Assembly: GCF_900104535.1 (NCBI RefSeq)
Contig: NZ_LT629710.1
Location: 3,038,001 to 3,102,000, forward strand
Length of the DNA: 64,000 bases
Reading direction: 5' to 3'
DNA from: Nakamurella panacisegetis
GTDB lineage: Bacteria > Actinomycetota > Actinomycetes > Mycobacteriales > Nakamurellaceae
Made by a program: the position numbers and the translations under genes. Shown in pieces: positions 4,521 through 30,563 of this stretch. Below the pieces are notes generated by a model. The model saw only the letters and a list, made by a program, of their open reading frames with translations, had not been told where the DNA came from and did no database searches. Position 1 is the first letter of the stretch; each line of letters begins with the position of its first letter.

Positions 4521-6275
4521 ATGACGACGCAGACGAGCGACCAGCAGGGCGCCGACGGCGGGGGCGCCGGGGCGACCTGGGGGCAGGTCCACCGGGCCGA
4601 CAGCTGGCGGCGACTGGCCGCCGAGGAGTTCGACGTGGTGATCATCGGCGGCGGCGTGGTGGGCGCCGGGGCCGCCCTGGACGCGGTGACCCGCGGTCTG
4701 TCGGTCGCGTTGGTCGAGGCCCGTGACCTCGCGTCCGGCACGTCCTCCCGGTCGTCGAAACTCTTCCACGGTGGCCTGCGCTACCTGGAGATGTTCGAGT
4801 TCGGCCTGGTCCGCGAGGCCCTGCGGGAACGCGAACTGATGCTGACCAAGATCTGCCCGCACCTGGCCAAGCCGGTGTCGTTCCTCTACCCGCTGTCCAA
4901 GCCGCTGATCGAGCGGCCCTACGTCGGGGCCGGGCTGATCATGTACGACTCGATGGGCGGCGCGAGATCCGTTCCGCGACACAAGCATCTGACCAGGGCC
5001 GGTGCCCTCCGTCTGGTTCCCGGCCTGCGGCGCGACGCCCTGGTCGGCGGGATCCGCTACTTCGACGGGCAGGTCGACGACGCCCGTCACACCCTCACCG
5101 TGGCCCGGACGGCGGCCGCCTACGGCGCCGTCGTCCGCACGTCCACCCAGGTCGTCTCGTTCATCAAGGAGGCCGACCGGATCACCGGGGTCCAGGTCCG
5201 GGACGTCGAGACCGGGGACGAGACGCAGGTGCGGGGCAAGGTCGTGATCAACTCGACCGGCGTCTGGACCGATGAGTTGCAGCGGCTGTCCGGGGGCCGC
5301 GGCCGGTTCAAGGTCCGGGCGTCCAAGGGGGTGCACCTGGTGGTGCCGAGGGACCGGATCACCTCCGAATCCGGGATCATCCTCAAGACCGAGAAGTCGG
5401 TGCTGTTCGTCATCCCGTGGGGGGCGCACTGGATCATCGGGACGACCGATACCGACTGGAACCTCGACCTGGCCCACCCGGCGGCAACCAAGGCCGACAT
5501 CGACTACATCCTCGACCACGTGAACCGGGTGCTCGCCGTTCCGTTGACCCACGAGGACATCGAGGGCGTCTACGCCGGTCTCCGGCCGCTGCTGGCCGGG
5601 GAGAGCGAGCAGTCGTCCAAGCTGTCGCGAGAGCACGCCGTGGCCCGGGTCGCGCCGGGACTGGTGGCCATCGCCGGGGGCAAATACACGACGTACCGGG
5701 TGATGGGCGCCGACGCGGTCGACACTGCCGCCGAGGACCTGCCGGGCCGGATCAACCCCTCCTGCACGGCTGATGTGCCGCTGCTGGGCGCCGACGGGTA
5801 CCGGGCGCTGGTCAACCAGGCCGACCGGATCGCGGCCAACCACCACGTCCATCCGTACCGGATCAAGCACCTGCTCAACCGTTACGGCTCGGAGATCCAC
5901 GAGCTGCTCGCGCTCGCCTCGGCCGACCCCGAGTTGTGGAAGCCCCTGCCCGGCGCCGACGAGTATCTGCAGGTGGAGGCGTTGTACGCGACGACGCACG
6001 AGGGGGCCCTGCACGTCGAGGACGTGCTGGCCCGCCGGACCCGGATCTCGATCGAGTATGCACACCGGGGGACGGAGACCGCCCCCAGGGTGGCCGAGCT
6101 GATGGCGGGCGTGCTGGGCTGGACCGACGCCCAGCGCGATCAGGAGGTGGCCACCTATCTGGCCCGGGTGGAGGCCGAACGACGGTCGCAGACCGAGCCG
6201 AGCGACTCCTCGGCCGATCAGGTGCGCCGGCAGGCACCGGAGATCCGCGACCTGCTCGTCTCGCCGGTCGCCTGA
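4521..6275 (+). CDS. glpD: Glycerol-3-phosphate dehydrogenase (FAD), copy 2
   Basis: A second GlpD of 584 residues with the same layout as copy 1: FAD-binding DVVIIGGGVVGAGAALDAV, SGTSSRSSKLFHGGLRYL, and a DAO C-terminal domain ending with the ARRTRISIEYAHRG segment. I chose the ATG at 4521, preceded by a GAGG-rich stretch; an upstream in-frame GTG at 4485 would add 12 residues with no clear ribosome-binding site. It lies 60 bases after glpK, probably in the same transcript. The two copies may differ in expression or electron acceptor; the sequence does not say which one is principal. Confidence 0.94.
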   Translation: MTTQTSDQQGADGGGAGATWGQVHRADSWRRLAAEEFDVVIIGGGVVGAGAALDAVTRGLSVALVEARDLASGTSSRSSKLFHGGLRYLEMFEFGLVREALRERELMLTKICPHLAKPVSFLYPLSKPLIERPYVGAGLIMYDSMGGARSVPRHKHLTRAGALRLVPGLRRDALVGGIRYFDGQVDDARHTLTVARTAAAYGAVVRTSTQVVSFIKEADRITGVQVRDVETGDETQVRGKVVINSTGVWTDELQRLSGGRGRFKVRASKGVHLVVPRDRITSESGIILKTEKSVLFVIPWGAHWIIGTTDTDWNLDLAHPAATKADIDYILDHVNRVLAVPLTHEDIEGVYAGLRPLLAGESEQSSKLSREHAVARVAPGLVAIAGGKYTTYRVMGADAVDTAAEDLPGRINPSCTADVPLLGADGYRALVNQADRIAANHHVHPYRIKHLLNRYGSEIHELLALASADPELWKPLPGADEYLQVEALYATTHEGALHVEDVLARRTRISIEYAHRGTETAPRVAELMAGVLGWTDAQRDQEVATYLARVEAERRSQTEPSDSSADQVRRQAPEIRDLLVSPVA

Positions 6276-6355
6276 CCCTTGTCGAGCGCGACCACGACGC
6301 CCGCCGTGCCGCACGTGGGCGCCGCAGGCCATGATGAGCCGATGGGGGGGTCGAG

Positions 6356-7051
6356 GTGATCCGCAGCCGCCGGCCGACGCCGACCGCGCCGGTACGGGTC
6401 GGGCTGCTCGTGGCCACCGGCGTGCTCCTCACCGGGGCCGCCCTCTGGGCCGGGGCGAACGGACCGTGGACCGGACGTCCGGAACGCACCCGATCGGAGC
6501 CCACCGACCTCCCGACCTTGCCGACCTTCACCCCTCCGACGCTGCCGACCCGGGCGCCGGTCAACCCGCGGACCGGGACCGGAAGCTCCTTCGACCCCAC
6601 CATCGTCCTGCTGATCCTGGGTGGCGTCCTACTGGTGGCCCTGGTGCTGATGGCCGGCTCGATGATCCGGAACCGCTCGGACGGCGCCGGCCCGAAACGG
6701 CCGAAGAGCCCGGTCCGGGACGAGGTGATCCCATCGCCGTCCCAACCTGACCCGGCGCGACCCTTCGACACCCGCGAGGCGGCCGACTACGTGATCGCCA
6801 GTTGGGAGCAGGTCGAGCGGCAGGCCGGGGCCACCGGCTTCGGCCGCGGTCCCGCCCAGACGCCGACCGAGTTCCTCGACGCGCTGCGGGCGGCCTACCC
6901 GATGGACGAACGGGCCTGCGCCGAACTGCTGGCGCTGTACCAGCGGGCCCGGTTCGATCACGTGCGGCTGCGGCCGGACACGGCCGCGCGCGCCCGGGCC
7001 TGCGCCGACATCGTGCTCGGCGCGATCACCGCCTCGTGGTCCCCGCCGTGA
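6356..7051 (+). CDS. DUF4129-domain membrane protein
   Basis: A 231-residue protein with two predicted membrane segments: about residues 14-32 and 82-102 (PTIVLLILGGVLLVALVLMA). They are separated by a Thr/Pro-rich external stretch of about 45 residues. A cytoplasmic DUF4129 domain follows (YVIASWEQVERQAG ... PTEFLDALRAAYP ... ELLALYQRARF). DUF4129 domains usually occur at the end of transglutaminase-like membrane proteins or beside MoxR/DUF58 genes, as here. It starts at a GTG within GAGGTG. Its stop overlaps the next gene (GTGA). First gene of a five-gene operon running to 10513. Molecular role unknown. Confidence 0.8.
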   Translation: MIRSRRPTPTAPVRVGLLVATGVLLTGAALWAGANGPWTGRPERTRSEPTDLPTLPTFTPPTLPTRAPVNPRTGTGSSFDPTIVLLILGGVLLVALVLMAGSMIRNRSDGAGPKRPKSPVRDEVIPSPSQPDPARPFDTREAADYVIASWEQVERQAGATGFGRGPAQTPTEFLDALRAAYPMDERACAELLALYQRARFDHVRLRPDTAARARACADIVLGAITASWSPP

Positions 7052-7589
7052 CCGGGCCACCCCCGGCCTACCCGCCGACCCGGACGACCTCGCGGGGCGC
7101 GCACCTGGTCGTCGCGGCCGGCATCGGTCTGGTCGCCGCTCTCGTGCTCTACGTCATCCGGGCCCCGCTGTCCCGGTCCCTGGCCGCCGGCGTGGTCTTC
7201 GCCGTCGGTTCGTTCGTCCTGCTCCGGGCATCGGAGGTCCCCGCTCTCGCGTGGCCGGCCACACCGCCGTCGAAGGCGGACGAGCTCGGGCAGATCCAGC
7301 GATGGCGACTCAACGGGTTCGACGCCCTGACCCATCGGCCGCCCGGCCTGAGCCCGGACCTCCGCCGTCGCCTGGCCGCTCTGGCGAGCGCCATCGCCGC
7401 GCGTCGGCACGTCGTGATCGGGTCGCCGGCCGCGATCGCGCTGCTCGGCCGGGGCCATCACGACCTGCTGTTCCCGCCGGAACGGGCCGAGGGCGATCCC
7501 CGGCCGGACCCGCCGACCAGCGCGCAGCTGATCGACCTGATCGACCGTCTCCTCGAACTCGGCTCCAGCTCCCCCTCGGAAGGACCCTG

Positions 7590-7590
<1 letters not shown>
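7048..7590 (+). CDS. Small membrane protein of the MoxR/DUF58 operon
   Basis: A 180-residue protein with a hydrophobic hairpin at about residues 18-60 (LVVAAGIGLVAALVLYVI and LAAGVVFAVGSFVLL) and a soluble C-terminal region rich in Arg and Ala. The GTG start at 7048 overlaps the preceding stop as GTGA, and its own TGA shares one base with the ATG of the MoxR gene. I do not recognise a named domain. Its position between a DUF4129 protein and a MoxR ATPase suggests it is a structural member of the same membrane complex. Confidence 0.7.
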
Positions 7591-8639
<1,049 letters not shown>

Positions 8640-18530: not shown

Positions 18531-19823
18531 GTGCGTCGCCGGATCCTGACCTCCATCCTGCTGGTCATCGCCGCGATCGTCGTCACGCTGGCCCTCCCGT
18601 TGGGAGTGGTCTCGTGGCGGCTGGTCGACGACCTCAAGCACCAGGAACTGGCCGGTCGGCTGCAGTCCATGGAGACCTCGATCTCCCTGCAGTCGGAGCG
18701 GGCCTCCGCGATCGATCTGAGTCGGCTCGAGGTGGCGATCCCGGAGGACGGCCGGCTGGTGATCCGTCAACCGGGAAAGCCCGACCGGGCGGTGGGCGCA
18801 CCAGCGTCGTCCGACTCCTACTCCGAATCCGTGGCCCTGCCCGGGGGCGGCCAGCTGATCCTGTCCGTGCCGATGGGCAACCTGCGGGCCGAACGCTGGC
18901 GGGCCGTCCTGCTGGTGGCGGCGGCCGTCGTGCTGTCGCTGTTGGTCGCCACGGCCATCGCGCTGATCCTGGCCCGTCGGCTGTCCACCCCGCTGTCCGA
19001 CGTCGCCCGCCGGGCGGCGCGGCTGGGGTCGGGCGACTTCCGCACGTTCCGACGCCGGTACGGGATCGCCGAACTGGACCGAGTGGCCGACGTGCTGGAC
19101 TCGTCGGCCACGGACATCGCGGCGCTGCTGAGCCGGGAACGCGACCTGGCCGGCGACATCTCCCATCAACTCCGGACCCGGCTCACCGGGTTGCGGCTGC
19201 GCCTGGAGGAGATCGCGCTGAACCCGGACCCGGCGGTGGTCGCCGAGGTGCACGCCGCGCTGGATCAGACCGATCGGCTGGTCACCGTGGTCGACGATCT
19301 GTTGGCCAACGCCCGGTCGCAGCGGGCCGCCGGTTCCACCGAACTCGATCTGTCGGCCGAACTGGAGGATCTGGCCACTGACTTCCGTCCCAGGGCCGCC
19401 GCCGCCGGACGGACCTTCCGGGTCAAGTGCCCCAAGGACATTTCGGTCCGGGCCACGGCGGTGCGCCTGCGCGAGGCGCTGGGCGCGCTCCTGGACAACG
19501 CACTGGTCCACGGCGCCGGCGCCATCCGGGTCACCGTGCGGCCAGACGCCGCGTCGGTGGTGATCGAGGTGTCGGACGAGGGGAACGGGGTGCCGACACC
19601 CTTGGTCGGACACATCTTCGAGCGGGGCATGTCAACGGCATCCTCGACCGGCCTCGGGCTCGGCCTGGCGCGAGCCCTGATCGAGGCCGACGGCGGTCGG
19701 CTGGAACTGCGCCGGGCCAGCCCGCCCGTCTTCGGGATCTTCCTGACCGCCGAGAACGCCGCCGACGAGTCACCGGTGCCGGTCGTGCCGAACGCGCCCG
19801 CGCCGCCCAGGACGGCCCGGTAA
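18531..19823 (+). CDS. Two-component sensor histidine kinase
   Basis: A 430-residue membrane kinase. Transmembrane segments lie at about residues 5-30 and 124-148, enclosing a short (~90-residue) extracellular sensor. Then come a HAMP region, a dimerisation box with phospho-acceptor His at about 212 (SHQLRTRLTGLRLRLEE, where most relatives have SHELRTPL), the N box LLDNALVHG, and ATP-lid glycine motifs (SDEGNGVP, GLGLGLARAL). A Pro/Ala-rich tail of about 20 residues follows. It pairs with the regulator at 17852-18523. The small sensor suggests it detects an envelope or membrane signal; the ligand is unknown. Confidence 0.92.
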   Translation: MRRRILTSILLVIAAIVVTLALPLGVVSWRLVDDLKHQELAGRLQSMETSISLQSERASAIDLSRLEVAIPEDGRLVIRQPGKPDRAVGAPASSDSYSESVALPGGGQLILSVPMGNLRAERWRAVLLVAAAVVLSLLVATAIALILARRLSTPLSDVARRAARLGSGDFRTFRRRYGIAELDRVADVLDSSATDIAALLSRERDLAGDISHQLRTRLTGLRLRLEEIALNPDPAVVAEVHAALDQTDRLVTVVDDLLANARSQRAAGSTELDLSAELEDLATDFRPRAAAAGRTFRVKCPKDISVRATAVRLREALGALLDNALVHGAGAIRVTVRPDAASVVIEVSDEGNGVPTPLVGHIFERGMSTASSTGLGLGLARALIEADGGRLELRRASPPVFGIFLTAENAADESPVPVVPNAPAPPRTAR

Positions 19824-19837
19824 CCGATCGCCCGAGA

Positions 19838-20362
19838 TCAGCGGGTGGTGTCAGCCTCAGCCGTCGGGCTCTCCACGGCGGGCAGCTTGCCTTCGTCCTT
19901 CAGGTCGTCCGGGAACACCCAGCGGCGGTAGGCCCAGTAGCGGAAGACCATGGCGATCAGGGTGCCGATGATGTTGGCCGCGATGAAGTCGGTGATGGAG
20001 ACGGTCAGGCGCGAGTAATGCTGCTGGTTGAATTCGAGCAGGTAGTGGGAGAACCACAGGGGCAACAGGTTCAGGCCCAGCGCCACCGCATTGAACAGGA
20101 AGAACAGCGACACCTCGTGATGCCGGGCCCGGCCGCCCCGATTGCTGAACGACCACTCGCGGTTGAGGATGTAGTTGACGATGGTCGAGATCAGCACCGA
20201 GATGAATTTCGAGGTGATGACCTTGCCGTCGAGGACGGTGTGCGACAGCAGGGTGAAGAGCCCGGTGTCCACGATCCACGACGTCCCGCCCACCACGATG
20301 AACTTCGCGAGTTCACGATGTTTGGGTGGTAGGACTTCGCGGACGCGGTCGATCAGATTCAC
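19838..20362 (-). CDS. GtrA-family membrane protein, copy 1
   Basis: A 174-residue four-pass membrane protein of the GtrA family, proposed to help move lipid-linked sugars across the membrane. Segments include FIVVGGTSWIVDTGLFTLLS, SVLISTIVNYILNREWSF, LFFLFNAVALGLNLLPLWF and FIAANIIGTLIAMVFRYWAY; the final FRYWAYRRWVF is typical. I chose the GTG at 20362, six bases after TACACT (a -10 element), giving MNLIDRVREV; a GTG at 20368 is also possible. It lies downstream of the sigma-factor fusion on the same strand. A GtrA gene also lies near purK in mycobacteria (Rv3277). Confidence 0.88.
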   Translation of the reverse strand: MNLIDRVREVLPPKHRELAKFIVVGGTSWIVDTGLFTLLSHTVLDGKVITSKFISVLISTIVNYILNREWSFSNRGGRARHHEVSLFFLFNAVALGLNLLPLWFSHYLLEFNQQHYSRLTVSITDFIAANIIGTLIAMVFRYWAYRRWVFPDDLKDEGKLPAVESPTAEADTTR

Positions 20363-20460
20363 CGCCACAGTGTACGGGCCGACCTTGTGTTGTCTGTGCT
20401 GGTCAGGGCCGGTGGCCGCACAGGCGTTGCTCACCTGGACCACACATGGGACTCTCGCAG

Positions 20461-23400
20461 TCAGCTGAGGCTGCGGACTACCAGAGTCGGGCCGACCCAC
20501 AATCCGTCCTGAGTGTTCTGCCCGGAGGGGACGTCGGCCAGCTCCTGGTTGAGGAACGTCAGAGCGTTGTCGCTGGCGCCTCCGACCGCACCCCCGGCGA
20601 CCAGGTCGAAGCCAGTTGTGTAGCCGGACGGACCCGAGCCGTCGGTTCCGGTCAAGAGGCCGGCCCCGTATTCGTTGGGCTTCGACGAGATCAACGGCGC
20701 ATCACCGCCCACCGACAGCGTCTTGTGGGCCCACGGATCGGCGGCCCACACGGTCACCGCGTAGCTCTGGATCTGCCGACCACTCGGACTGAGCGTGATG
20801 GCCTCCGGATTCAATGCGGAGATGCTGTACAGATTGTTGCTGTGTGCTTCGAGATGTACATCGGCGCCGGACGCGGCCATCCAGGTGACGGTCAGGGTCC
20901 AACCGCCCATCGGACTGGTGCCGGCGCTGGTGAGCTTCGCAGCCAGGCCAGAAACCGAGAGTTCATGAGTGCCCGGACCGGTCAGCAGATCCGTGACGTC
21001 CGCGACCCGCGCCGTGAACGTGTTGGCCGTTTCGGCGGCTCCGCTCGGTACCGCGCCGGTCACGGCCCGGGAGGTTCCGTCCACACCAAAGGTGACGGTG
21101 TCCAGCGAATGCGACTGGTCGAGGACGGCGGTCGCGGCCCACGTCAGGTCGGCGCTGAGAACCACGGCCCCGGTCGGCACGGTGATCGTCCCGGTGGAGG
21201 GGTCGACGGACGTCATCGAGTGTGAGGTGTTGCTGGTGCACGAACCACGGAAGGTGAGTGGATTCGAACACCTCATCGTCGTCGCTCCCGTCATCGCACC
21301 GCCGAACGTTCCGTCGAGCTCGATGGGGCCGCCGGGCGACCGGGCAACGATGCTGACGGCGCCGGACATCGGGAGCGTCCGGTCGCCATCGAGTTGAGCC
21401 GGGGCGACGCTGCCGCTGGCCGCGGTCGCACTGGGCAGGACCGCGACCGTCAGCGTGGCCGCCACGTGCGCGTTCGCATCCGGTGCGCAGACGAAAGTCG
21501 CGCCGCTGGGGGTGCACGCCGGGGACGTCGCCGTGACGACCAGGCCGTCCGACAACTGGCGGGGCACCGTGATCGATCCCGGCTCTGACACGTCCTGGGC
21601 CGGTGTGCCGCTCAACGTCAGGGTCCCCATCGTCCCTGCCGTCAGCTGGGGGGAGGTCAACGCGATCGATTCGTATCCGCTCAGGTGCGGGTCGACGAGG
21701 AGTTCGGTCCCCGGCACCAACCCGATCGGACTGTCACCGGTCGGCAAGGTCGCGTCAGACAGAGTCTGATCGCCCGATGCGGACGAACTGGCCTGCAGGG
21801 TCAGCGTCCAGTTGAGAGGGCCGCCATCGGTCGGTGTGCAGGTCACATCGGCGCCACCGAGCGCACAGCCGTCGGAGGCGGTGATGATCTTCAGTCCGGG
21901 AGTGAGCTGGACCGGCACTGAGACGACTCCGGGATTGATCACGCCGGTGTTGGTGCGCGTTCCGACGAGGTTCACGGTGGTCACGACTCCCGGCCGGAGG
22001 GGCTGGGACAAGCCGTCGAGTTGCACCGAGCTGAACCCGCCCGACGAGGCGCCGGACAGGACCGACAAGGTTGTCGTGAGGCCGACCGGGCGGGCCCCCT
22101 GGTCGGTCGCCCCCGATTCGAGCGTGGTGCTGGCCGACGTGGCCCTCGCATCGACGTGAACCGCCAGTTCGAGCCCTGTGAGGGCGGCTTGGGACGACGG
22201 ACACGTCAGCTGCGTCTCGTCCATCGTGCAGCCCGACACCGAGGATCCGCTCGTCGCCGGGGCCAGGCCGACGATCGTCATGCCGTCGGGTAGCGCTTGC
22301 TGCACGGCGCTGCGCGCGATCACCAGACTGCCGGCATCGGAGACTCCAGGCTTCAACTCCGCTGCGACCTTGACTCGATCCGTCGACGCCACAGCCAGTC
22401 CGGTGGCCGAGACGGCCACGGTGCGGTAACCGCTCGAAACCTTCGCGGCAATCGGCTGGGCTGTCCCACCGTCCAGCGAGACATCGATGGTGCCGTCAAC
22501 GGCTGACGGATCGGTCGTGATCGGGACGGTCAGGGTCACGCTGCCGTTGGCCTGGATGGCCGGAAGTTCGCAATGCAGGCTGCCCGTTGTGATCGAGCAC
22601 GAGGTGTCGCTCGGGACGAACGCACTGAGAGCTGCACGCAGCGCGGGACCAGAGTTCATCGTCGGCTGACCCAGGACGAATCCGCCAGGTGCCGAGACAT
22701 CGATGGTCTGCCCGGGTGTCGACGCCGACCCACCCGAGTTGGTGAGCTTCACCGTCAGGGAGCCCGAGCCGCCGGCAGCCAGGTCGGTGCTCACGGCGCT
22801 GCCCGTCGGGTCGACGGCGACCACCGGCCCGCTGGGTGGTGCGGTGCTGGTTGACGAGGTGGTCGTCTGAGTCGACGGTGCGCCAGCCGAGGTGCTGGTG
22901 GCCGGGGCGGTGGTGGCAGCCGGTGACGTGGTGCTCTGCCCGTTGCTGCTGGGCGAGGTCTGCGAGGTGACGCTGGTCGCCGAGGTGCCAGTCGGCGTCG
23001 GCGCGGTGTTCGGAACAGAAGACGGGACACCGCCGACGCCGGGTGAAGTCGGCGGGGGGACCTGGAGGGCCGGGGGAATGGTCGGCGTCGACGGGACGGG
23101 GTTGGACCCTCCGCTCGAACCGGAGCTGCCTGTCGGGATATGGGAGCCGCCACCCGCGGCATTCGTCGTTCCCGCGCTGGTGCCGTTGCTCCCGCTGGAC
23201 CCACCTGACGCGCTGGACCCGCCGGCGCCGTTCGCGCCCCCGGGTGCGGTTCCACCGCCGGGTGCGGCCCCACTCGCGCCACCGCCACCGCCACCGCCAC
23301 CGCCACCGCCACCGACGGTGGCGGCCACCGAGCTGCCGACACCGGCCGTGTTGGGGTTCGAGCCCGGCCCGGCGGTCAAAGCGATCGCCACCCCGACCAC

Positions 23401-24345
23401 CACGACGGCCGCTGCGGCGACGCCGGCCACCATCGCCCGGGGACCCCAACTGCCCACTTTGGCCAGCCCGGCGAGGTGCGAGCCGCCGTGTGCCGCGGCG
23501 CCGGCGGACGCGTGTCCGCCGCCCAGGACACCGAGCTGCGCCAACGGCGCCACCGGGCCCAGCGTGGAGATGTAGCCGGCGGCGGCGCCGCCCAGTAGCA
23601 GCGGCGCCAGCAGACCCCGGAGGCCGGTGTTGATCTCGGACAACTCCGCGGCCAGGGCCGGGCACCGGTCGCACTCTTCGAGGTGGGCGTCGACCTGGGC
23701 CTTCTCCCGCTTGGAGAGGCCGCCGCGGGTCCAGGCGCCGAGCCGGTCGACGGTGGTCCGGCAACGCTCCGCCGCCGTTTCGGCCAGGTGGGCCTGCAGG
23801 TACGCCTCGCGCAATCCCTCCCGAGCCCGGAATGCCAGCGACGAGACCGCATTGGGGGCCATGCCGAGCAGGATGCCGACCTCGGCCGCCGATTGCCCCT
23901 CGACCTGGGTGTGCCAGAGGACCGTCTGCCACCGCTCGGGCAGCCCGGCGAAGGCTTTGCCGATGAGACCCGTCTCCAGATCGGCGATGACCGGGTCGTC
24001 CCCTTCGACGGCGACGTCATGCGTCTCCATGTCGCCGGTGAATTGCAGGCGCTTGTCCTTACGGGTGCGGTCGTATGCCGTGTTACGGAGCGTGGTGAAC
24101 AGGTACGCGCGGAAGGCGGTGTCCGGGCCCTTGCCTTCGAGCATGCCGTCCAGCACCCGGGCAAAGGCCTCGGAGACCAGATCATCGGCCTCGGCCGACG
24201 ATCGGCCGAACTGGCGCGCCAGAGCCGACGCGGCACTCGCGTGGCGGGCATAGAGATCGCCGAAGGCGGTGCGGTCACCCGCGCGGACACGCGTGATCAG
24301 CTCGGCGTCACTCGCCAGCTGTGCGTGGTCCTCGACCGATGACAC
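20461..24345 (-). CDS. ECF sigma factor fused to zinc anti-sigma-like domain, membrane segment and large surface domain
   Basis: A 1294-residue single protein. Residues 16-96 are sigma-70 region 2 (AFGDLYARHASAASALARQF, then DDLVSEAFARVLD). Residues 133-186 are region 4 (LPERWQTVLWHTQVEGQSAA, then AEVGILLGMAPNAVSSLAFR). Residues 195-240 carry a zinc anti-sigma-type motif (C195, then H221-x3-C225-x2-C228 in HLEECDRC). A membrane segment lies at about 304-325. Then come 12 glycines (345-356) and a Ser/Thr/Pro/Gly linker to about 506. The last ~790 residues are beta-rich repeats of 110-130 residues and a C-terminal module with FTARVADVTDLL and GGWTLTVTWMA. Start: the GTG at 24345 has TTGGAG six bases upstream; an ATG at 24351 is possible. 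ECF factors with long C-terminal extensions are known in Actinobacteria, but this size and layout are unusual. A second hydrophobic stretch at 245-263 leaves topology uncertain. Confidence 0.9.
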   Translation of the reverse strand: MSSVEDHAQLASDAELITRVRAGDRTAFGDLYARHASAASALARQFGRSSAEADDLVSEAFARVLDGMLEGKGPDTAFRAYLFTTLRNTAYDRTRKDKRLQFTGDMETHDVAVEGDDPVIADLETGLIGKAFAGLPERWQTVLWHTQVEGQSAAEVGILLGMAPNAVSSLAFRAREGLREAYLQAHLAETAAERCRTTVDRLGAWTRGGLSKREKAQVDAHLEECDRCPALAAELSEINTGLRGLLAPLLLGGAAAGYISTLGPVAPLAQLGVLGGGHASAGAAAHGGSHLAGLAKVGSWGPRAMVAGVAAAAVVVVGVAIALTAGPGSNPNTAGVGSSVAATVGGGGGGGGGGGGASGAAPGGGTAPGGANGAGGSSASGGSSGSNGTSAGTTNAAGGGSHIPTGSSGSSGGSNPVPSTPTIPPALQVPPPTSPGVGGVPSSVPNTAPTPTGTSATSVTSQTSPSSNGQSTTSPAATTAPATSTSAGAPSTQTTTSSTSTAPPSGPVVAVDPTGSAVSTDLAAGGSGSLTVKLTNSGGSASTPGQTIDVSAPGGFVLGQPTMNSGPALRAALSAFVPSDTSCSITTGSLHCELPAIQANGSVTLTVPITTDPSAVDGTIDVSLDGGTAQPIAAKVSSGYRTVAVSATGLAVASTDRVKVAAELKPGVSDAGSLVIARSAVQQALPDGMTIVGLAPATSGSSVSGCTMDETQLTCPSSQAALTGLELAVHVDARATSASTTLESGATDQGARPVGLTTTLSVLSGASSGGFSSVQLDGLSQPLRPGVVTTVNLVGTRTNTGVINPGVVSVPVQLTPGLKIITASDGCALGGADVTCTPTDGGPLNWTLTLQASSSASGDQTLSDATLPTGDSPIGLVPGTELLVDPHLSGYESIALTSPQLTAGTMGTLTLSGTPAQDVSEPGSITVPRQLSDGLVVTATSPACTPSGATFVCAPDANAHVAATLTVAVLPSATAASGSVAPAQLDGDRTLPMSGAVSIVARSPGGPIELDGTFGGAMTGATTMRCSNPLTFRGSCTSNTSHSMTSVDPSTGTITVPTGAVVLSADLTWAATAVLDQSHSLDTVTFGVDGTSRAVTGAVPSGAAETANTFTARVADVTDLLTGPGTHELSVSGLAAKLTSAGTSPMGGWTLTVTWMAASGADVHLEAHSNNLYSISALNPEAITLSPSGRQIQSYAVTVWAADPWAHKTLSVGGDAPLISSKPNEYGAGLLTGTDGSGPSGYTTGFDLVAGGAVGGASDNALTFLNQELADVPSGQNTQDGLWVGPTLVVRSLS
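23278..23313 (-). repeat. Hexanucleotide microsatellite encoding 12 glycines
   Basis: Six perfect copies of GCCACC on the plus strand (GGTGGC on the coding strand) encode Gly345-Gly356 of the sigma-factor fusion, just after the membrane segment. Because the unit is six bases, slippage would lengthen or shorten the linker by two glycines without breaking the frame. Confidence 0.9.
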
Positions 24346-24695
24346 GGGCATCTCCAAATCAGTTGTCTCCGGCGACTTCGCCTCCGAGCACGTCCGGCTG
24401 GTTCCGGACGTGACCTGCGCTCTCCAGTGTGACGGCTGAGACGCCGTTTCATCACGCGCTGAACAGCTTTTATCACGGAGCGTGCCCCTTCTAGGGTGCC
24501 AGATCAGATCGGCGGGCGGAATCCTGCTACTCACAGTGACCGGATTGAGAGTCTGGCGGGTGCGTTCCCCCTTCCCGCCGGTTCAAAAGGCTGCAAAACC
24601 CGCGTGACGGGCCGCTCTCTGGTGCGTCTCATCTCCAAGAGCGATCACGGTGACCCATTCGGATCACCGGTGAGCGCCGGGTGAGAGGAGAGAGC
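24346..24695. other. Divergent intergenic region of the sigma-fusion and GGDEF-like genes
   Basis: About 350 bases separate the two divergent genes. It contains the 24-bp inverted repeat at 24389-24412 and an A/T-richer stretch around 24464-24476 (CTTTTATCACGG) that could hold the promoter of the sigma gene. The plus-strand gene is preceded by GAGGAGAGAG. I see no separate gene. In-frame extension of the sigma gene upstream to 24534 is open but lacks coding character and a ribosome-binding site. Confidence 0.5.
24389..24412. promoter_or_regulatory. Inverted repeat upstream of the sigma-fusion gene
   Basis: A perfect inverted repeat: arms CACGTCCGG (24389-24397) and CCGGACGTG (24404-24412) with a 6-bp spacer, 44-67 bases upstream of the GTG of the sigma-fusion gene. 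On the coding strand the spacer begins AACC, so the sequence reads GGAACC inside the palindrome, the type of -35 element ECF factors often use. It could be an operator, an autoregulated promoter element or an mRNA hairpin. No downstream -10 match of ECF type was convincing. Confidence 0.5.
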
Positions 24696-25451
24696 GTGGC
24701 CATCAGGTTTCCGGTCGTCGTGAGGTCCAGCACAGAGTTGAGTCGGCAGTGGAACGAACGAGCGTCCGCGTATGGCTGGGCGTTCCCGTCCGACTGGCAC
24801 GTCCCCGCGGTGGACGCCGTCTGCGATGCCATCGTCGCCGAGGCGGATGTGTGGGCGGCCGCCGAACGCCTGGGTCGCAGCCGCGCCGCCGCCGGAGTGT
24901 CCCTGGCCGAGGCTCTGGTCGACATCGACTCTCTGGCGGCCGTCGTCCCGCGTCGCTACACCGATCCGCTGCGCCGCGCCGTCTCCCTCGGGTGGGCTGA
25001 TCGCATCACCGCCCCGCCCTCGAGCGTCGCCGATCCGCTCACCGGGCTGGTCACCCCGGAGTATCTGCAGGTTCGACTGGGCGAGCTGTACCGCGGAGCC
25101 GAGGTGTCCGGGACGAGTGTCTCGACATCGTCAGCCCTGGTCGTCGTGCGGCTGGCTCTGCACGGCCAGGGCAGTTGGCAACGGACCCTGCCGATGATCC
25201 TGGTCGGCGACGGCATGCGGCGGGTGTTCGACGGCGGCCAGACGCTGGCCCTGTTGGGCGACTCGGTGGCGGTCGTTCTCGCCGAGCGGGACGCCATGCT
25301 GGCCCGTCGGGCCCGCTTGCTCTGCTCGATGATCACCGATCAGATCCAACTCGACTCCCAAGTGTCGATCCCGTCGCCGTCGGTGTGGATCGAGACGCTT
25401 CCACCCAAACACGCCGCCGCGATGGACCTGATCGCCGAGTTCGGTCGCTGA
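24696..25451 (+). CDS. Protein with degenerate GGDEF-like domain
   Basis: A 251-residue soluble protein. Residues 113-118 read DPLTGL followed by VTPEYLQVRLGELY, the typical entry to a diguanylate cyclase domain. The catalytic GGDEF loop is replaced by LGDSVAVVL (about 187-195), so cyclase activity is unlikely. The N-terminal ~110 residues are helical with no recognised domain. The GTG at 24696 has GGAG five bases upstream; an upstream GTG at 24681 is less likely. It is divergent from the sigma-fusion gene and 49 bases upstream of purK. It may act as a nucleotide-binding or regulatory protein; that is inference. Confidence 0.75.
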   Translation: MAIRFPVVVRSSTELSRQWNERASAYGWAFPSDWHVPAVDAVCDAIVAEADVWAAAERLGRSRAAAGVSLAEALVDIDSLAAVVPRRYTDPLRRAVSLGWADRITAPPSSVADPLTGLVTPEYLQVRLGELYRGAEVSGTSVSTSSALVVVRLALHGQGSWQRTLPMILVGDGMRRVFDGGQTLALLGDSVAVVLAERDAMLARRARLLCSMITDQIQLDSQVSIPSPSVWIETLPPKHAAAMDLIAEFGR

Positions 25452-27497: not shown

Positions 27498-30400
27498 TTA
27501 CTTCGCCGGATTGGCCTGCACCACGGTGCCGGACCCGTCCACGTACTGAACCCAACCGAGATAGGACGTGTCGGCGTCCAGCCCGGAGGCGGTCGCCGTG
27601 ACGGTGACGGTCTGGCCGGCGGTGGTGCTGCCGGCGGCCGGGGTGACGGTGAAGCTCCCGACGTTCGGGTTGGCCCCGACCTCGTAGTCGCGGAAGGAGA
27701 ACGGCGTGGACGTGGTGCCGGCCGCGTCCTGGAACCCGTTGACCAGGGCGATGTACGTGCCGGCCTCGGGGGCCACCAGATCAACGGTCTCGTCCGCCAG
27801 TGACGTCCCGGAGGTCCCGACCTCGACCGCGGAACCGTTCTGGACGTAGTAGACGACGAGATCGATGTCCTGGGCGCCGTTGTCGTTGGCCACCCGGGTG
27901 GCGAACCGAGCAAGCTTGGTACCGGCCGGAACCGTCACCGCGAACTGCTTGCTGGTCGTCGAGGTGACCGACGACGCCTGCTGGTGACCGGCGGTCAACC
28001 CGTACCCGGTGATCGGGAACGCTCCGGTGATCCCGGACTTGACCTGCCAGCTGACACTGCCCCCGGTGCCGTTGATGTCAACGGAATCGGCGAAGCTGTG
28101 CAGCGCCACCGGCTGCAGGGCGATCGGGCTGCGCACCGTCGTGTGCGCCCCGTGCCAGGTGAGGAACCCGGTGGAGTACTCACCGAGCGGCGCGGTGGTC
28201 CGCGTCATGGTCACCCTGAACGACTTCGTCTGGCCCACCTTGCTGAATACCAGGATGGACGGGCTGACGGTGACCTTGAAGCCCGGCACCGATGCCTTGG
28301 CCACGTACAGGCCGGTCTTGACCGCCGTCACCGTGCGGGTGACGGTCAGGGTGGACACGAGCGAACCGGAGGCGATCGACGCCTGGTTGTAGTCCGACGG
28401 AGCGACGGCCGGAGCGCCGGTTCCGGTGTCGTATCCCAGACCCTCGATGTAGGACAGCCAGTCCTGGTCACCGGCGTTGTAGACCAGTGCCGGATTGAAC
28501 ATGGCCGACGGGTTGACCTCTCCGGCGCCCTGGGCGAACGGGTCGGTGTTCTTCGAGCCGTCGCTGTTCTTGGTGTCGGTGGCCGTGGTCATCAGGGCCG
28601 ACTTGATCTCCATGGGGGACCACTTCGGGTGCTTCTGGACGAACAGCGCGGCCAAGCCGGCGATGTGCGGCGCGGCCATGGAGGTACCGGACAGGAAGTC
28701 GGCCGTCCGGCCGCCGTCGAGCTGCGGCGAGATGGAGGCGAGGATGCCGACACCCGGAGCCGCGATGTCCGGCTTGAGGATGTCTCCGTTGTTCGACACC
28801 GACGGCCCCCGTGAGGAGAAGCCGGCGATCTGCGGGTACGGCGTGCTGATCTTGGTGGTGTTGCCCGGAACCAGGGTCGCGGTGGCGCCCGCGGTCGCCG
28901 CGTAGGCCTTGGCCGGGAGACCGAGATCGGAGTCCAGGTGCACGGTCGGGACGGTGTGCAGATCGGCGTCGGTGTCCAACGGGGTCAGGTTGACCAGCAC
29001 CATGCCGATGCCGCCGGCCCGCTTGACCTCGGCCGACTTGGCGACGCGGTCGACCACGCCGCGGTCACACTCGACGATCTTGCCCGCCGTGAGGGCCGGG
29101 TCGAGGGTGCCGGGTGTGCATCGTCCCGCGGCGACGGTGTCAGCCGCGGCGAGCTTGACCGAGGTGGCCGTGACGAACGGCGCCGGGCCGACGGTCTTGG
29201 TGACGGTGGTGCTGACTCCGGCGTACTTCTTGCCGTTGCCGAGAACGACCGTGCCCTCGTAGGGCTTCATGGTGCTGGCGGCGACCGTGGTGACCCATGG
29301 TGCCGAGTTGTCCAAGGTGGACGCACCGGGGCCGCTGTTGCCGGCCGAGGCGGACACGAAGATACCGGCCGACGCGGCGGACAGGAACGCCAGCGCGATC
29401 GGGTCGACCGTCAGCGACTCCGAGGATCCGCCGACCGAGTAGTTGATGACGTCGACGCCGTCCGCGACGGCCTGGTCGATGGCGGCGACGATGTCGGAGG
29501 TGGTGCCCCCGGACTGGGACGCGACCTTGCTGGTCCACAGAGCCTTGTAGACGGCGATCGCGGCGGCCGGCGCCACCCCGGAGATCTTCCCGAAGTCGAT
29601 ACCGTCGACGGTGGCCTGCACGCCGGGATTGCCCCCCGCGGTGGAGGCCGTGTGCGTGCCGTGGCCCTCGCCATCCCGTGGGGACACGAAGTCCTCGAAG
29701 TTGCTGCCCGCGCTGGCGATGAACGCGTCACCGAAGTAGCGGGCACTGATCAACTTGGTGTTGCAGTCGTTGGCGGTGAACTGCTCCCCGGTCTCGCACT
29801 TGCCGGTGAACGTCTGGCCGTTGGCCTTCTTCATCACGATCTGCGAGCCGCTGCGGTAGGCCAGGGTCGGATCGCTTGCGCTCGGCGCGTTCTTCAACGC
29901 GCTGCCGGCGAAGGACTTGGACTCCGGGTAGATGCCGGTGTCGATGACGCCGATGACGACGCCCTTGCCGGCGTTCTTGGTGCCGCCGAGGCCGGCCCAG
30001 ACGCCGTTCTTCCCGGCCAGCTTGAGGTAGTCGTAGTCGACCTTGTCGTCGTCGGCGTAACGCAGGGTGTCCTTGGCCACCGCGAGCACCCCGGCCGTGT
30101 GGGCCAGCTTGGTGGCCTGGGCCGAGGTCAGCGTCGCGCTGAAACCGTTGAGCGACACCGTGTACTTCTGCTTCTGCTGCGCGCCGACCGAGGCGGCGAT
30201 CTTGTTCTGGTCGGCGGTCAGGACCGATGCGTATTTCCGCGCCGAGGCGCTGGTGACCTCGACCTTGTCACCGGTCTTGGGCTTGGTCGCCGGAATGCCG
30301 GCTGTACCGCCGGTGTACGAAGCGATCGGGGCCTTCGACAGGACGACCACGTACTTGCCCGCGCTGTAGGTGGCGGACGGGATCTTCCCGTCCGGGCCGA

Positions 30401-30563
30401 CGGCGATCGGGGTTGCTTTCGCCGTGCTGGCCGCCGCGACCGTTGTCGAACCGGTGCGCGATGCGGGTTGCGCACCGGCCGGTAGGACGGACGCGACGAC
30501 GAGAGCGCCGACGGCGAGTGTGACGACGATCGGCCGTCTCGCCTTCGTCAGCGATGTGAACAT
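27498..30563 (-). CDS. Secreted subtilisin-family (S8) serine protease
   Basis: A 1021-residue exported protease. It has a signal peptide (residues 1-31, ending AGAQPA), an I9-type inhibitory propeptide (about 70-170) and a catalytic domain with D208 (GVIDTGIYPES), H301 (GHGTHTAS), oxyanion Asn near 409 (SAGNSGPG) and S628 (SGTSMAAPH). A protease-associated (PA) insert lies at about 465-560. The C-terminus has fibronectin-type-III-like beta domains and an Ig-like end. Layout resembles large actinobacterial and plant subtilases. No sorting signal or membrane anchor is visible, so it is probably released. The ATG has GGAGG four bases upstream. It probably degrades external protein; substrate unknown. 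Confidence 0.94.
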   Translation of the reverse strand: MFTSLTKARRPIVVTLAVGALVVASVLPAGAQPASRTGSTTVAAASTAKATPIAVGPDGKIPSATYSAGKYVVVLSKAPIASYTGGTAGIPATKPKTGDKVEVTSASARKYASVLTADQNKIAASVGAQQKQKYTVSLNGFSATLTSAQATKLAHTAGVLAVAKDTLRYADDDKVDYDYLKLAGKNGVWAGLGGTKNAGKGVVIGVIDTGIYPESKSFAGSALKNAPSASDPTLAYRSGSQIVMKKANGQTFTGKCETGEQFTANDCNTKLISARYFGDAFIASAGSNFEDFVSPRDGEGHGTHTASTAGGNPGVQATVDGIDFGKISGVAPAAAIAVYKALWTSKVASQSGGTTSDIVAAIDQAVADGVDVINYSVGGSSESLTVDPIALAFLSAASAGIFVSASAGNSGPGASTLDNSAPWVTTVAASTMKPYEGTVVLGNGKKYAGVSTTVTKTVGPAPFVTATSVKLAAADTVAAGRCTPGTLDPALTAGKIVECDRGVVDRVAKSAEVKRAGGIGMVLVNLTPLDTDADLHTVPTVHLDSDLGLPAKAYAATAGATATLVPGNTTKISTPYPQIAGFSSRGPSVSNNGDILKPDIAAPGVGILASISPQLDGGRTADFLSGTSMAAPHIAGLAALFVQKHPKWSPMEIKSALMTTATDTKNSDGSKNTDPFAQGAGEVNPSAMFNPALVYNAGDQDWLSYIEGLGYDTGTGAPAVAPSDYNQASIASGSLVSTLTVTRTVTAVKTGLYVAKASVPGFKVTVSPSILVFSKVGQTKSFRVTMTRTTAPLGEYSTGFLTWHGAHTTVRSPIALQPVALHSFADSVDINGTGGSVSWQVKSGITGAFPITGYGLTAGHQQASSVTSTTSKQFAVTVPAGTKLARFATRVANDNGAQDIDLVVYYVQNGSAVEVGTSGTSLADETVDLVAPEAGTYIALVNGFQDAAGTTSTPFSFRDYEVGANPNVGSFTVTPAAGSTTAGQTVTVTATASGLDADTSYLGWVQYVDGSGTVVQANPAK

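Follow-up and report, generated by a model that had tools for sequence, protein, structure and literature searches.

A probable one-piece, membrane-held ECF sigma factor with an adhesin-like tail in Nakamurella panacisegetis

The window analysed here (64,000 nucleotides (nt) of Nakamurella panacisegetis contig NZ_LT629710.1, positions 3,038,001 to 3,102,000) carries on its minus strand, from 24345 to 20461, a gene for a protein of 1294 residues that combines an extracytoplasmic function (ECF) sigma factor, a zinc anti-sigma-type domain, a hydrophobic segment and a long tail. Its frame starts with GTG, ends with TGA and has no internal stop. We consider this protein likely to be a one-piece, membrane-held sigma factor of the ECF52/ECF53 kind, which would be released by proteolysis or a conformational change and would then read promoters of the form GTGA-N17-CGTC. 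A preliminary description of the same sequence had proposed the four-part fusion in a single frame, and this was borne out; its coordinates were right as well, but it left the minus strand unstated.

Sigma factor, zinc domain and tail in a single frame

The gene and the parts of its product are as follows:

20461..24345, minus strand: whole gene, fused ECF sigma / zinc anti-sigma-type / membrane / ectodomain protein (1294 residues)
24049..24255, minus strand: sigma-70 region 2, residues 31-99 (Pfam PF04542 Sigma70_r2, 7.4e-13)
23818..23964, minus strand: sigma-70 region 4, residues 128-176 (Pfam PF08281 Sigma70_r4_2, 5.1e-6)
23662..23763, minus strand: zinc anti-sigma-type domain zf-HC2, residues 195-228 (Pfam PF13490, 6.9e-9)
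23560..23616, minus strand: conserved hydrophobic stretch 1, residues 244-262 (by eye and homologue alignment; taken as not membrane-spanning)
23365..23433, minus strand: predicted transmembrane segment (stretch 2), residues 305-327 (hydropathy peak 2.71, positive charges on the N side)
22828..23364, minus strand: low-complexity linker, residues 328-506, including a 12-Gly run at 345-356 (composition)
22438..22827, minus strand: predicted ectodomain repeat R1, residues 507-636, Cys 583/592 (cysteine spacing, self-comparison)
22054..22437, minus strand: predicted ectodomain repeat R2, residues 637-764, Cys 706/715 (cysteine spacing, self-comparison)
21682..22053, minus strand: predicted ectodomain repeat R3, residues 765-888, Cys 827/836 (cysteine spacing, self-comparison)
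21334..21681, minus strand: predicted ectodomain repeat R4, residues 889-1004, Cys 944/953 (cysteine spacing, self-comparison)
20464..21333, minus strand: C-terminal DUF3344-like module, residues 1005-1294, Cys 1026/1036 (hhalign to homologue modules)

The GTG start is preceded at 6 nt by GGAG, and further in-frame starts lie upstream (ATG 24351 and GTG 24534). Hidden Markov model searches of the parts found both sigma-70 regions and zf-HC2, all above the curated Pfam cut-offs, and nothing past residue 228 (no Pfam match at E<=1 in residues 229-1294). Moreover, TIGR02937 matched at 2.7e-18 and no further sigma-70 region scored above its cut-off, leaving the sigma2 plus sigma4 complement by which ECF factors are recognised. 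The H-x3-C-x2-C motif already pointed out in the preliminary description is present and complete with C195 (i.e., C195 and H221-x3-C225-x2-C228); it is of the zf-HC2 type and adjoins the sigma part, as expected of a zinc anti-sigma domain. Its four ligand columns are invariant in alignments A1 (36 homologues) and A4 (18 homologues), in which zf-HC2 was matched by 36/36 and 18/18 members, respectively. In the reading proposed here the zinc domain would dock on the sigma domains. The structure models, which were too poor for use, weigh against this reading: a model of residues 1-337 with one relative reached a mean predicted local distance difference test (pLDDT) score of 47.1, and a single-sequence prediction of the C-terminal 288 residues reached 31.9.

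The family was searched with residues 1-242 as the query. Of the 17 genus genomes, 13 proved to contain this sigma/zinc core (best E at most 7.6e-93), while G042, G108, G115 and G122 gave nothing stronger than matches of 7.3e-9 to 7.8e-7. Class-wide, E<=1e-20 was reached in 105/296 genomes and 27/115 genera; a check for membrane part and tail covered some, not all, of these matches. For 60 matches, up to 15 kb of surrounding sequence was examined; since L001 lies on the same contig as L037, it was dropped from the topology, motif and upstream-site counts. A1 holds the window protein and 35 of 40 loci (leaving out the open-ended L065, as well as L069, L071, L072 and L074), and A4 holds 18 of 20 loci from other orders (leaving out L084 and L092). 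When twelve same-genus loci, the window included, were read at length, a single closed frame ran in eleven of them from the sigma part through the zinc motif and a hydrophobic segment to a long tail, and the fusion is therefore not a chance frame. One further genus genome, G129, has the sigma part at a contig end only, as an open frame of 339 residues, which brings the total to thirteen.

The preliminary description took such a fusion to be unusual in kind, a view that did not hold up. According to the accessible parts of the reports (a limit that applies to all papers cited here), the ECF52 member SCO4117 (PMC5826349) and groups ECF48, ECF52 and ECF53 (PMC8999054) share both the plan and the proteolysis model. 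SCO4117 of Streptomyces coelicolor is described as a sigma domain, a zinc finger, a membrane region, a proline-rich extension and a carbohydrate-binding module (PMC5826349). It thus has in common with the window protein a sigma part, zinc finger, membrane segment, low-complexity linker and extracytoplasmic domain in one chain; proteolytic release has been proposed for it, and ssgB is among the genes that depend on it (PMC5826349). In contrast, SCO4117 ends in a carbohydrate-binding module (smart00776) and lies beside atrA (PMC5826349), whereas the window protein carries DUF11-like repeats and a DUF3344-like tip and has as neighbours a GtrA gene, a histidine kinase/response regulator pair, a divergent gene and purK/purE. 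Of the ECF52 characters, the zinc finger, membrane helices and long low-complexity linker were found; the carbohydrate-binding domain had no Pfam counterpart in residues 229-1294, and NPCBM was matched in 5 of 18 homologues from outside the order. The five loci with NPCBM tails (L075-L078 and L080) look like SCO4117 orthologues, the comparison of L075 and L076 showing a conserved TetR-like gene (identified by eye) immediately upstream, which is the position reported for atrA. A tree of the sigma/zinc part with 58 rows put these five loci on the opposite midpoint side from the window protein (support 90/95, with a warning for long branches). Sequence comparison thus suggests a protein that works like ECF52 but, by its look, is not an SCO4117 orthologue.

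ECF48, ECF52 and ECF53 have been grouped as fused, probably protease-activated proteins (PMC8999054), and certain ECF52/53 members are predicted to contain glycosyl hydrolase and carbohydrate-binding domains (PMC10766802). ECF53 and ECF48 share with the window protein a C-terminal anti-sigma fusion, a zinc finger and one or two membrane helices; compared by description only, their extensions run up to 400 residues (PMC8999054) versus 1066 after the zinc motif here. The only fused case described as experimentally characterised is IutY of Pseudomonas putida (ECF243), which likewise fuses a sigma factor to a membrane anti-sigma factor and is activated by stepwise cleavage (Prc, RseP); it answers the siderophore aerobactin via iron-starvation surface signalling, and the accessible text describes no adhesin-like tail (PMC8999054). 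What appears new is an adhesin-type, changeable outer part on a known one-chain sigma receptor plan, together with a conserved divergent partner gene, a GtrA neighbour and a candidate output promoter. In the literature covered, outside which several key papers fall, we found no report of such an ectodomain on a sigma factor, nor of a GTGA-N17-CGTC promoter.

A candidate promoter and a possible link to an SsgA-family gene

The 335 nt between the sigma gene and the divergent gene hold one motif directed at each:

24428..24456, minus strand: candidate autoregulatory promoter CGTGA-N17-CGTCACA, upstream of the sigma gene (motif search)
24603..24631, plus strand: candidate promoter CGTGA-N17-CGTCTCA, upstream of the divergent gene (motif search)

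Across 40 loci with the divergent pair, GTGA-N16/17-CGTC occurred 28 times in 11.3 kb of intergenic sequence versus 80 times in the remaining 569 kb (mostly coding; palindromic sites counted twice). At least one intergenic site was present in 18 of these loci, including 11/12 same-genus ones, and the spacer measured 17 in 16 of the 17 same-genus sites. Sites in sense orientation at most 300 nt upstream were found for 12/61 sigma rows and 15/39 partner rows, while none of the 99 control rows (PH, ACC, response regulator, histidine kinase and GtrA) had one. In the whole 5-Mb genome the strict motif occurred five times and its reversed control not at all, but that control does occur in the 17 genus genomes (up to four per genome); the short form GTGA-N17-CGTC was found 168 times in the window's own genome versus 99 for the control.

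The same-genus motif scan also led to an SsgA-family gene (PF04686, 3.7e-26). In 11 of 13 sigma-bearing genus genomes (by gene, in 11 of 14 sigma-bearing SsgA rows), a site precedes the approximate start of this gene by 77-115 nt; G019 has two SsgA-family genes, one with a site of 16-base spacer and one without. Because shuffles expect only 0.65 matches in 18 SsgA rows, this is far beyond chance. The site before the SsgA gene is a candidate for sigma dependence, judged by motif and position, and within the genus only. A drop of ssgB to 0.09 of wild type in the SCO4117 mutant (PMC5826349, accessible part) agrees with it in kind and implies no promoter relation.

Several observations weigh against the motif as the output of this sigma factor. 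It was first spotted by eye in the sigma/partner region and counted there afterwards; 22 of the 40 loci have no intergenic site between sigma gene and partner, among them 9/9 from outside the order; and sense sites also occur upstream of purK (1/31) and purE (2/30). For the SsgA gene, no site was found in sigma-bearing G032 and G129, one of three testable sigma-less genus genomes does have it (G042 yes; G108 and G115 no; G122, with only 13 nt of upstream sequence, not counted), and the association between sigma and site gave a Fisher p of 0.136 (13 sigma-bearing and 3 sigma-less genomes). Outside the genus, only one of 30 SsgA-family genes had a site, at -298 and with an 18-base spacer (30 of 34 listed matches, from 18/20 genomes; 4 of the 30 from sigma-less genomes), and with this single, atypically placed match the SsgA link did not extend beyond the genus.

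The most serious competing explanation, possible though not the one we favour, is that GTGA-N17-CGTC is the site of a different regulator or sigma factor, which would act on this locus as well. Several f14 sites read as palindromes (GTGACG...CGTCAC), a form that would suit a dimeric DNA-binding protein, and both the site retained before the SsgA gene of one sigma-less genome and the non-significant association fit such a regulator. On the other hand, CGTC is a usual -10 element of ECF promoters, the spacer is nearly constant in the genus, and the sites are directed at both the sigma gene and its partner.

Other promoter types and motif sites were considered as well. The motif proposed for SCO4117 differs from the earlier predicted ECF52 signature, both being theoretical (PMC5826349, as far as accessible). 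Searches of the upstream regions for AAC-type and SCO4117-type (CSGYN17SRHA) promoters gave scattered matches without visible pattern. Sites antisense to the response-regulator gene (7/22 rows) were discarded, as they lie mostly inside a neighbouring inositol-phosphatase-like coding sequence (by eye), and site G000:4011252, within a glgX-like coding sequence (named by eye), was taken as chance. A strict palindromic motif at G000:C1:4114960-4114988 (L099/L103) stands 193 nt upstream of a gene for an RbpA-like RNA polymerase-binding protein (by eye); this site and one near an RskA-like anti-sigma gene (G000:1153833) are kept as leads.

Release, membrane topology and the outer part

In the mechanism we propose, the N-terminal sigma domains would lie in the cytoplasm, restrained by the fused zinc anti-sigma-type domain behind them, and one transmembrane helix (residues 305-327) would lead into a Gly/Ser/Thr/Pro linker across the wall. 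Outside, a stalk of four disulfide-braced repeats would carry the DUF3344-like tip. Contact of this tip with a surface or wall polymer, or else loss of contact or tension, might cause a cleavage or conformational change that frees the sigma part, which would then read the GTGA-N17-CGTC promoters of its own gene, of the divergent partner and, in the genus, of the SsgA-family gene. The earlier argument that the sigma part would have to be freed by proteolysis or a conformational signal agrees with the fused architecture; the same two routes are discussed for SCO4117 (PMC5826349).

More tentatively, and with less confidence than in the one-piece sigma factor itself, such proteins might form a widespread class of actinobacterial one-chain receptors in which an exchangeable adhesin-like tip directly commands the sigma factor, turning contact into transcription without a partner, with core and divergent gene conserved and with the genus promoter coupling contact to an SsgA-family cell-division/morphogenesis gene. 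If so, this would be a single-gene surface sensor with a readable output, whose tip evolves while the switch stays constant. The candidate promoter makes that output testable, filling a gap for such sigma factors, and a relative outside Streptomyces would show contact sensing tied to an SsgA-family gene.

A variant with the same topology would dispense with cleavage, a conformational signal (zinc loss, phosphorylation or membrane tension) activating the sigma part while it stays tethered. SCO4117 does have phosphorylation sites at Ser15 and Thr231, and conformational change is named as a route in the accessible text (PMC5826349), yet we judge this variant rather unlikely: IutY is a fused system with characterised cleavage (PMC8999054), and the truncated sigma part of SCO4117 still acts, a strain with only this part being less affected than the deletion and having SCO4117 expression activated (PMC5826349).

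With regard to topology, the second hydrophobic stretch that the preliminary description placed at residues 245-263 was indeed found, at about 244-262, besides the segment at 305-327. Measurements covered 56 proteins (L071 and L072 were left out as too short, and L069, L074 and L092 were also left out). When the 15 residues on either side of stretch 2 were compared, Lys/Arg were more numerous on the N side in 36 of the 56, less numerous there in 8 and equal in 12, and the tails had an even number of cysteines in 43 cases, an odd number in 10 and none in 3. As the homologues are not independent, the sign-test values (1.3e-5 for charge bias and 2.8e-6 for cysteine parity) serve only as a guide. 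This charge bias, the mostly even cysteine numbers and the lectin- and adhesin-type domains of tails favour a single membrane crossing with the tail predicted to lie outside. What tells against a single crossing is the conservation of stretch 1 (LRxLLAPLLLGxAAAGYL), a possible second membrane helix: it was hydrophobic (best 19-residue mean 1.2-2.4) in all 56 homologues, and R243, Gly252 and Tyr258 are invariant in A1. Our guess is that the anti-sigma domain ends with it, as a helix packed against the sigma part or the membrane face.

If both stretches crossed the membrane, the tail would be cytoplasmic and serve as an internal scaffold or regulator, an alternative that the preliminary description had raised. 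It draws on the position of stretch 1 close behind the zinc motif and on its conservation; we nevertheless hold this alternative to be improbable, since the charge bias, the cysteine parity, the lectin, NPCBM, Ig and adhesin-type domains in relatives' tails and the long low-complexity linker all argue against it.

Under the favoured single crossing, the outer part would begin with the linker. The 12-Gly run and Ser/Thr/Pro-rich stretch reported before are where they were expected, residues 327-506 consisting to 73% of Gly, Ser, Thr and Pro (24 Pro of 180). The tail, of about 790 residues, had been described as repeats throughout, which proved right for four repeats of 116-130 residues, with one C-x8-C pair each and regularly spaced cysteines (repeat boundaries R1-R4 chosen by us), but the C-terminal part is a separate DUF3344-like module. 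In local alignments against shuffles, z was 11.7 for R3/R4, 6.5 for R2/R4, 5.1 for R1/R4 and 4.8 for R2/R3, and R1/R2 (z 0.0) and R1/R3 (z -0.6) had no likeness. The last approximately 275 residues align with six same-genus relatives (profile A2), and A2 matched profile A3 (nine modules from other families) with an hhalign probability of 97% (E 2.9e-11). Three of the nine A3 modules match Pfam DUF3344 (PF11824, best E 2.2e-8), the window protein itself having no match at E<=1. Searches of solved-structure profiles with the C-terminal module returned nothing credible, and NCBIfam gave no match for the nine homologue modules.

Pfam matches in the tails of the 36 members from the order were DUF11 (PF01345) in 6, NEW3 in 3 and CARDB in 2, with none for the window repeats. 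The adhesive-module likeness suggested earlier for the ectodomain is supported by the resemblance of its repeats to those of DUF11-, CARDB- or NEW3-bearing relatives and by the DUF3344-like tip, and the tail may be read as an adhesin-like stalk of four repeats with this tip at its end. Fibrillar adhesins are reported to have DUF11 among their stalk domains, and an adhesin-like cluster overlapping DUF3344 is called ambiguous in function (PMC9210967). As predicted for the window protein, a stalk of repeated domains bears the adhesive region of fibrillar adhesin-like proteins; unlike here, no sigma factor is mentioned in the accessible part of that report (PMC9210967).

Among relatives, the core is conserved and the outer part changes. 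Besides the five NPCBM tails, the 18 members from other orders had ricin-B lectin (2), Ig (2), DUF642 (1) and DUF3344 (1) matches, and many homologue tails match no named Pfam family. The nearest relative, L035, is 93% identical in the sigma part and could be aligned to residue 981 at 52% identity; its tip consists of DUF642-like and DUF11-like pieces (labels by sequence reading, not Pfam matches). Since its end differs from that of the window protein, the outer tip varies between sister genomes. The survey of homologues with and without the ectodomain, envisaged in the preliminary description, thus yielded varied ectodomains as well as two proteins, L071 and L072, that lack both membrane segment and tail, stopping immediately after the zinc motif (258-259 residues in the extracted sequence). 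At the other extreme, the same-genus homologue L039 (G073) has about 2336 residues, with a much longer tail holding 27 cysteines.

The linker is also where the twelfth same-genus locus departs from the rest. In L038 (G087, 5977-7617 and beyond), the only one with the frameshift between sigma part and ectodomain that the preliminary description had regarded as damaging to the fusion, the frame breaks inside a TTAPTT-type linker repeat and the ectodomain continues in another frame, through either sequence error or slippage/phase variation. That a sequence or assembly error fused a sigma/anti-sigma gene with an adhesin gene in the window is hardly credible, for all that this break and a similar split reported for a Streptomyces clavuligerus homologue (PMC5826349, accessible part) speak for it, given the closed join in 11/12 loci from independent genomes.

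Gene neighbourhood

Two neighbouring genes recur with the sigma gene:

24681..25451, plus strand: conserved divergent partner gene (no Pfam match; weak GGDEF-like segment DPLTGL...YL..RL)
19838..20500, minus strand: GtrA-family membrane protein gene, downstream of the sigma gene (PF04138, 1.4e-23)

Because the GtrA gene as listed overlaps the sigma gene by 40 nt, its true start probably lies further inside. When window proteins were compared by tblastn with 41 loci (L001 and L037 being one genome), a downstream GtrA gene in the same orientation was present in 33 rows, and 32 had the divergent gene (with another arrangement in L072), and response regulator and kinase were kept in 14/16 f14 rows. 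L071, too, has a GtrA-like gene downstream. In other orders, the divergent gene was present in 9 of 20 loci. Among four scanned homologues of its product, one scored weakly with GGDEF_2 (8e-4, below cut-off), and these proteins largely keep DPLTGL...YL..RL; the product is a possible intracellular partner of the sigma factor.

Near the locus, at 27498-30563 of the window, lies a gene for a large S8 subtilase with PA, fn3_6 and weak PPC domains, as is the case in L035; none was seen in the remaining loci, many of which do not extend that far. It is conceivable that this subtilase acts as the first protease. An M50 site-2-protease-type gene is present too, which lends no special support because all 14 control genomes (14/14) carry one. 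Finally, the histidine kinase beside the locus (18531-19823 of the window) has a DraK-type sensor domain.

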